A stretch of 64,000 nt of DNA from Natrinema pellirubrum DSM 15624 (GTDB taxonomy: Archaea > Halobacteriota > Halobacteria > Halobacteriales > Natrialbaceae): the NCBI RefSeq assembly GCF_000230735.2, contig NC_019962.1, positions 1,240,001-1,304,000 of the forward strand, written 5' to 3'. Of this stretch, positions 51,870 through 53,257 are shown piece by piece. The translations under genes and the position numbers were made by a program. Within the stretch, counting starts at the first letter, position 1. Every line of letters starts with the position of its first letter. A model generated the notes under the pieces. The model saw nothing but the letters and a program-made list of their open reading frames with translations. It was not told where the DNA came from and searched no databases.

Positions 51870-53257
51870 ATGGAGATGGGTGATTTCTCGTCCGTATTGC
51901 TCGAGCATGCCCGGGAAAAGCTCGTGGTCGTCGACGCGGCTGGCACGTACGTCTACGTCAACGAAGCCAGTACCGAGATCGTCGGCTACGAGCCGAGTCA
52001 ACTCGTCGGTGAGCGTGCCATCGAGTACGTTCATCCCGACGACAGAACAACCGTTCTCGAGCAGTTCGAGGCCGTGATCGAAGCGACGGGGTCGTCGGCG
52101 ACGGTTCGCTACCGACACGCGGCCGCGGACGGCGGGTGGGTGTGGCTCGAGAGTCGGTTCACGAACCCCCGGACGACGCGCTCGAGGGCTGTGTCGTGAG
52201 TTCGCGCGACATCTCCGAGCAGGTGGCTGCGGAGCAGGAACGCCGCGACGCGGAGAGCCGCTTGCGGACGATCGCCGGGACGGTCGGCGACGTTCTCTGG
52301 ATGTTCGACGGGGACTGGGAAGAGGTCCTGTTCGTCAACCCCGCGTACGAGGCCGTCTTCGGTCAGCCGATCTCGACCCTCGAGGCCGACCCACAGGCGT
52401 TTCTCGACGTCGTCCACCCCGACGACGCTCCCTGTGTCAAGGAGGCTATGAAACGGGCAGCGAGCGGCGAATCGGTCGATATCGAGTACCGGGTCAACCC
52501 CGCGGCCGACTACGGCCGCTGGGTCTGGGTCCGCTCGGAGCCGATCCTCGAGGACGGCGATGTCGAGCGGATCGTCGGCTTCTCCCGGGATATCACCGAC
52601 CGACGACGGCGCGAACGTCAACTCGCGGTCATGGACAACCTCCTGCGACACAACCTCCGCAACGACATGTCCGTCATCCTCGGCAACGCCGAGTGCATCG
52701 CCAGCGAGGCATCGGAACCTTCCCGCGGGCGCGCGGAGATCATCCGAACGCAGGGACAGGAACTCTTAGAGAGCGCGGACAAACAGCGCGAGATCATCGA
52801 GTTGCTGACCGAGCGGTCGGTCCCGGAACCCATCGACCTCGTCCCGGTCGTCACCGACGCGGTCGACCGGATCCACGACTCGTACCCCGACGCGACGATC
52901 GAGACGAACCTGCCGGACGCGGCGACCGCCCGCGCTCTACACGAGGTCGAACTGGCAGTGATGGAACTGCTCGAGAACGCCGTTCGCCACGGCTCCGACG
53001 GAACGACGGAGCTGTCGGTGACCGTCCGTACCCGGTCGGACGGGGTCGATATCGTGATCCGTGACGACTGCCCGCCGATTCCGGAGGTGGAGTTTCGCGT
53101 CCTGACCGGCGACTGGAAGATGGACGACGTCTATCACACCTCGGGGCTGGGGCTGTGGCTCGTTCACTGGGTCGTCGACCTCTCGGACGGCCACATCGCC
53201 TTCGAACGCGCCGAGGGGGGAAACACGGTCACCGTGTCGCTGCCGCGGGACTCATAA
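51870..53257 (+). pseudogene. PAS-PAS sensor histidine kinase interrupted by one frameshift
   Basis: The first frame (51870-52199) encodes a PAS domain up to GGWVWLESRFTNP and then stops. The second (open from 52136 to 53257) continues PDDALEGCVVSSRDISEQVAAEQ, exactly the end of a PAS/PAC domain and its linker, followed by a second PAS (FVNPAYEAVFGQP), an H-box MDNLLRHNLRNDMSVILGN with the phospho-His, an N-box ELLENAVRH and a G-box TSGLGLWLVHWVV. Joining needs one extra base in the C-run at 52166-52170. So this is either a sequencing/assembly slip or a real inactivating or phase-variable shift. ATG 51876 is an alternative start. No membrane segment; cytosolic. Confidence 0.82.

Follow-up and report, generated by a model that had tools for sequence, protein, structure and literature searches.

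In Bordetella pertussis, the sensor kinase gene bvgS is switched by a one-base change in a run of Cs. According to the part of the published account used here, alleles with six and with seven Cs have both been detected, also mixed within one culture (PMC1891110). A second relevant system is archaeal. The Saccharolobus solfataricus gene fucA1 is split by a -1 shift into a short and a long open reading frame that overlap, and is subject to -1 programmed frameshifting, which the same source, in the part drawn on here, also reports for some haloviruses (PMC8211752). Among the titles listed by a limited literature search on haloarchaeal phase variation, none concerned an archaeal sensor kinase that varies through a homopolymer tract.

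Here we describe a locus in Natrinema pellirubrum DSM 15624 that bears some likeness to both systems, in which a gene for a PAS-domain sensor histidine kinase changes reading frame at a run of five Cs. It lies in a stretch of 64 kb with 66% GC, hereafter the window, which spans positions 1240001-1304000 of the chromosome (G000:C1). The genome comprises 4,354,100 bases and the chromosome 3,790,479 bases, the sizes printed for N. pellirubrum DSM 15624 assembly GCA_000230735.3 (PMC8530250, PMC5333441). Judged from its sequence, the locus fails those features of bvgS and fucA1 that were checked. The change appears to be the loss of one base, private to this genome record, within a conserved sensor kinase gene, and its interpretation is probably ordinary: a recent mutation or a reading error.

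A kinase gene divided between two frames

The earlier note on this DNA had placed five Cs at 52166-52170, and the forward strand of the window carries exactly that number there. The features of the locus are as follows:

51870-52199, forward strand: ORF1, 109 aa; the first PAS domain minus its C-terminal end, then about nine out-of-frame residues
52013-52199, forward strand: double-open stretch of 187 bases, in which both frames are without a stop
52136-53257, forward strand: ORF2, 373 aa as listed from a GTG; homology starts at about the C-run
52166-52170, forward strand: five-C run, the point where homology switches frame
52196-52199, forward strand: GTGA, in which a GTG of the kinase frame overlaps the TGA stop of ORF1
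52649-52651, forward strand: presumed phospho-acceptor histidine codon, within RHNLRND

ORF1 has a Pfam match to PAS_3 at residues 28-99 (E 1.9e-16) and ends in ...TNPRTTRSRAVS*, with its stop at 52197-52199. The second frame, preceded by a stop codon at 52010-52012, stays open from 52013 until a stop whose last base is 53257, and reads ...EPPDDALEGCVVSSRDISEQ... It supplies the end of the first PAS domain, followed by the second PAS domain (PAS_3, ORF2 residues 65-149), a presumed phospho-acceptor region and an HATPase_c domain (residues 271-372). We take RHNLRND to be the phospho-acceptor motif of the window kinase. HisKA itself gives only a sub-threshold match in one intact relative (L007, 16.4 bits against a cut-off of 26.9), and none is listed for the intact N. 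thermotolerans gene (L005). Both of these relatives show two PAS_3 and two PAS_4 stretches together with HATPase_c. The two pieces in the window match the two parts of such a protein, with two PAS domains and HATPase_c in order, and this identifies the gene as one for a PAS-PAS sensor histidine kinase.

As the tblastn query we used P0002, the unbroken kinase of N. thermotolerans (462 aa, from L005, AOIR01000058.1); a second record from the same contig (L034) matches it at 100%. On the window's genome, where no single open frame covers the kinase, residues 1-100 of P0002 match in one frame (96% identical) and residues 100-462 in another (98% identical), and the junction is the C-run. Since PAS_4 in the intact relative spans residues 12-119, a break at about residue 100 falls within the first PAS domain. 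The earlier note was thus right about both the frame switch at the C-run and its position in mid-domain. Its further claim, that neither piece alone would hold a complete first PAS, stands for that domain; the downstream piece on its own nonetheless still matches PAS_3 and includes the ATPase domain.

The genus was searched across 29 genomes: the window's own, 22 with a full-length match and six with short matches only (up to about 130 bases). Three orthologues from other genera, two from Halorubrum (L037, L038) and one from Salinarchaeum (L039), bring the total to 25 distinct sequences. Three repeat records (L034, L035 and L036, which duplicate L005, L006 and L013) were counted once, and P0002 found no match in a further locus (L040). 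In all 25 of the other distinct full-length orthologues, one stop-free stretch crosses the site, which leaves the window's genome as the only broken record of 26. Intactness was judged by the tblastn query; the longest stop-to-stop frame in L006 and L035 is not the kinase frame. Both pieces in the window align end to end with the same gene in Natrinema orthologues such as that of N. thermotolerans, the nearest relative (98% DNA identity over the gene). Because the query splits at the run here and is unbroken in 25 orthologues, the arrangement does not come from two open frames that happen to overlap.

The site itself varies among these intact genes. Six Cs are present in two of the 25, those of N. 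thermotolerans and N. mahii, and in the other 23 any run of Cs at the site is shorter than five. The next-nearest relative (G015) has CCCCTC at the site, while in ten orthologues a CTG is followed by a proline codon. The flanking DNA is collinear in three relatives (G015, G012 and G025). One relative also carries a partial, diverged second copy of the first-PAS region on a separate contig (L033, G020:C2:77656-77915), which is in frame over the site.

Recoding, restart and switching as unlikely readings

The two open frames differ by a -1 shift and overlap by 187 bases, so that the locus resembles fucA1, and programmed -1 ribosomal frameshifting or transcript slippage might yield the full kinase. 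The heptamer at the site, C CCC CGG, however, departs from the usual X XXY YYZ, in which Z is not G, as given in the part of that source used here (PMC8211752). RNA folds were no better than those of shuffled sequences (z -0.02 behind the site and -0.25 around it), and the codons concerned are not rare, with CCC making up 0.25 of proline and CGG 0.33 of arginine codons across the 25 orthologues. Neither a slippery heptamer with a stimulatory structure nor a conserved split was found, the split arrangement occurring in none of the 25 relatives. Programmed frameshift signals were accordingly rejected, with codon use, heptamer and folds all unremarkable. Unlike fucA1, the N. pellirubrum locus lacks a canonical slippery heptamer, unusual structure and conservation, and it is known here from sequence alone. 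We consider recoding exceedingly improbable.

The GTG at 52196 is a possible reinitiation start, in frame with the kinase and overlapping the ORF1 stop. Together with the PAS and ATPase domains retained downstream, it might suggest a pair of coupled proteins, one a short PAS peptide and the other a PAS-kinase begun anew at the GTGA. Against this, ORF1 stops inside its PAS domain, and GTG AGT is simply part of the intact gene in three of the 25 orthologues, those of the three nearest relatives. (An automatic count of GTG-A gave five, including the two Halorubrum sequences, which matched one codon earlier; the homologous codons number three of 25.) Since the same codons occur in these intact genes, the GTGA is no sign of adaptation, and a two-protein arrangement seems to us extremely unlikely.

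The earlier note had also proposed a slippage switch, in which a change between five and six Cs would turn the kinase off and on. The anatomy is like that of the bvgS C-run, with a one-base change in a run of Cs (there six versus seven) within a sensor kinase gene (PMC1891110, in the part consulted), and the six Cs in the two nearest relatives provide what would be the on state. The run is nonetheless short and ordinary: the window contains 39 runs of five Cs, five of six and one of seven, as well as 43 runs of five Gs. Five Cs are therefore nothing special in DNA of this GC content. A selected switching tract would be expected to persist in relatives, and this one does not. No contingency tract kept in relatives was found, as the six-C run is confined to two of 25 orthologues; a conserved slippage site was rejected on the same survey, with no run of at least five Cs in 23 of 25. 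The off state was seen in none of the 25. Whereas both bvgS alleles have been detected, N. pellirubrum is represented by one allele in one record, and its run is not kept in most relatives and shows no evidence of reversal. Phase variation at this site is thus very improbable, and the switch is the one of the three readings in the earlier note that finds no support; the other two, sequencing error and recent pseudogene, are together strongly favoured.

A more elaborate version may be considered, in which the N. pellirubrum kinase acts as a switch that is reversible or leaky. Here the five-C allele would produce a kinase containing the second PAS domain from the GTGA, freed from the first PAS domain, with occasional full-length kinase arising by slippage or from a six-C subpopulation. 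We give this only a very small chance. Were it true, the C-run would stand as the archaeal equivalent of that in bvgS, and mixed alleles, if they exist, would make this an archaeal sensor kinase with homopolymer phase variation.

A young lesion or a reading error

The two pieces of the kinase gene remain constrained. When the window is compared with N. thermotolerans, dN/dS comes to 0.22 for the whole gene, 0.30 for the upstream piece and 0.21 for the downstream piece. Three intact-gene pairs at greater distance give 0.28, 0.37 and 0.47; together with two further pairs that include the window, they make up the five other pairs compared, whose whole-gene values span 0.28 to 0.47. In the two pieces, neither another stop nor another frame change was seen. 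Because 0.22 compares with 0.28, 0.37 and 0.47 among intact pairs, constraint held until recently; and because the pieces are constrained and free of a second lesion, the change is either young or absent from the cell. With constraint normal and no added lesion seen, we reject an old pseudogene. Substitutions polarised with two outgroups number six nonsynonymous and eight synonymous on the window branch and three and six on the N. thermotolerans branch, with five ambiguous, and are too few for dating the break.

Four of the substitutions lie at 52177-52181, just behind the C-run, three on the window branch (52177, 52179 and 52180) and one on the N. thermotolerans branch. This cluster sits in a loop that is variable throughout the family, and for that reason we draw no conclusion from it.

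A C-run that is one base short is the classic mark of a homopolymer base-calling error. On this explanation, a base-calling or assembly error has left the deposited sequence one C short, and the gene of the strain itself is intact. The window's genome is the sole broken record of 26, six Cs are present in the two nearest relatives and constraint is undiminished, all of which speak for an error. Furthermore, in the parts of the window aligned to relatives (about 48 kb to G015, about 49 kb to G012 and 12 kb to G025, with indels placed by eye against the ORF list), the C-run is the only private, isolated, frame-changing indel placed well inside a conserved gene. Of the others, some are intergenic, some sit where an alignment ends (42666) or close to the start of a gene (47378), and some reflect a change in the relative (43995). 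Set against an error is the description of the assembly as complete, in the portion of the source used (PMC8530250), along with the spread of private indels over a larger stretch of the chromosome, described below. We regard an error as a serious contender, with somewhat less than an even chance.

A real, recent mutation by chance stands at about even odds, and we lean slightly towards it over an error, though on a weak basis. We infer that the base was truly lost and not misread, and likewise what becomes of the two pieces. According to the mutational reading, an ordinary Natrinema PAS-PAS histidine kinase gene would recently have lost one base in this strain's lineage, through chance replication slippage within the short C-run. 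Normal decoding would then no longer give the full kinase, as translation from 51870 would end after 109 residues, inside the first PAS domain. At most, a shortened kinase with the second PAS domain might be made by restart at the GTG at 52196 or that at 52136.

As it stands the finding matters little: it adds one further haloarchaeal sensor kinase gene broken at a single base. It does serve as a reminder that a pseudogene or a switch should be called only after another assembly of the strain has been consulted; for N. pellirubrum, a separate draft of the same type strain in 134 contigs is recorded (AOIE00000000 / GCA_000337635; PMC5333441, in the part used here), which probably stems from the Illumina project described in PMC4230888.

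Private indels across 264 kb

To learn whether homopolymer indels are frequent in the assembly, we set 264 kb of the chromosome against the corresponding DNA of two relatives (G015 and G012). An indel was called private when it was isolated, not a multiple of three bases, and of the same type and length against both other genomes within 8 bases, with flank identity of at least 80% and no other gap within 60 columns. This yielded 15 private indels in this genome, 10 in G015 and six in G012, in 136,253, 136,063 and 138,867 bases, respectively, aligned to both others. This genome has the most, which could mean that it contains more errors.

For 13 of the 15, and for all 10 and all six in the relatives, we determined whether some open frame of at least 120 codons, on whichever strand, is shifted relative to both references; the two left out (51338 and 51607) are multi-base changes outside the kinase ORF. 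Such shifts were found for seven of 13 indels in this genome, six of 10 in G015 and three of six in G012, open frames of this kind not being proven genes at 66% GC. As G015 and G012 have them too, private frame-changing indels are not special to this record. Moreover, most of those in this genome fall outside homopolymers, with runs of five or more bases holding two of the seven, at 52170 and in a nine-G run. Both observations weigh somewhat against a reading error at the C-run, but they do not separate it from a mutation.

The nine-G run (L052 at about 4081, G000:C1 at about 1348081) faces GGGGCGG in the two relatives, so that this genome alone is two bases longer there and open frames of 195-291 codons are shifted. 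It makes a better case for slippage, or for an error, than the C-run does. Another of the seven, a private one-base deletion on the minus strand (L054 at about 14132, G000:C1 at about 1398132, or 158132 in the joined sequence), shifts frames in the frame test, but is ambiguous and doubtful, as an unbroken 551-codon match to G012 runs across its position. Elsewhere, a private one-base insertion that lies in no homopolymer (L058 at about 13663, G000:C1 at about 1477663) puts a minus-strand frame of 462-481 codons out of register with both relatives.
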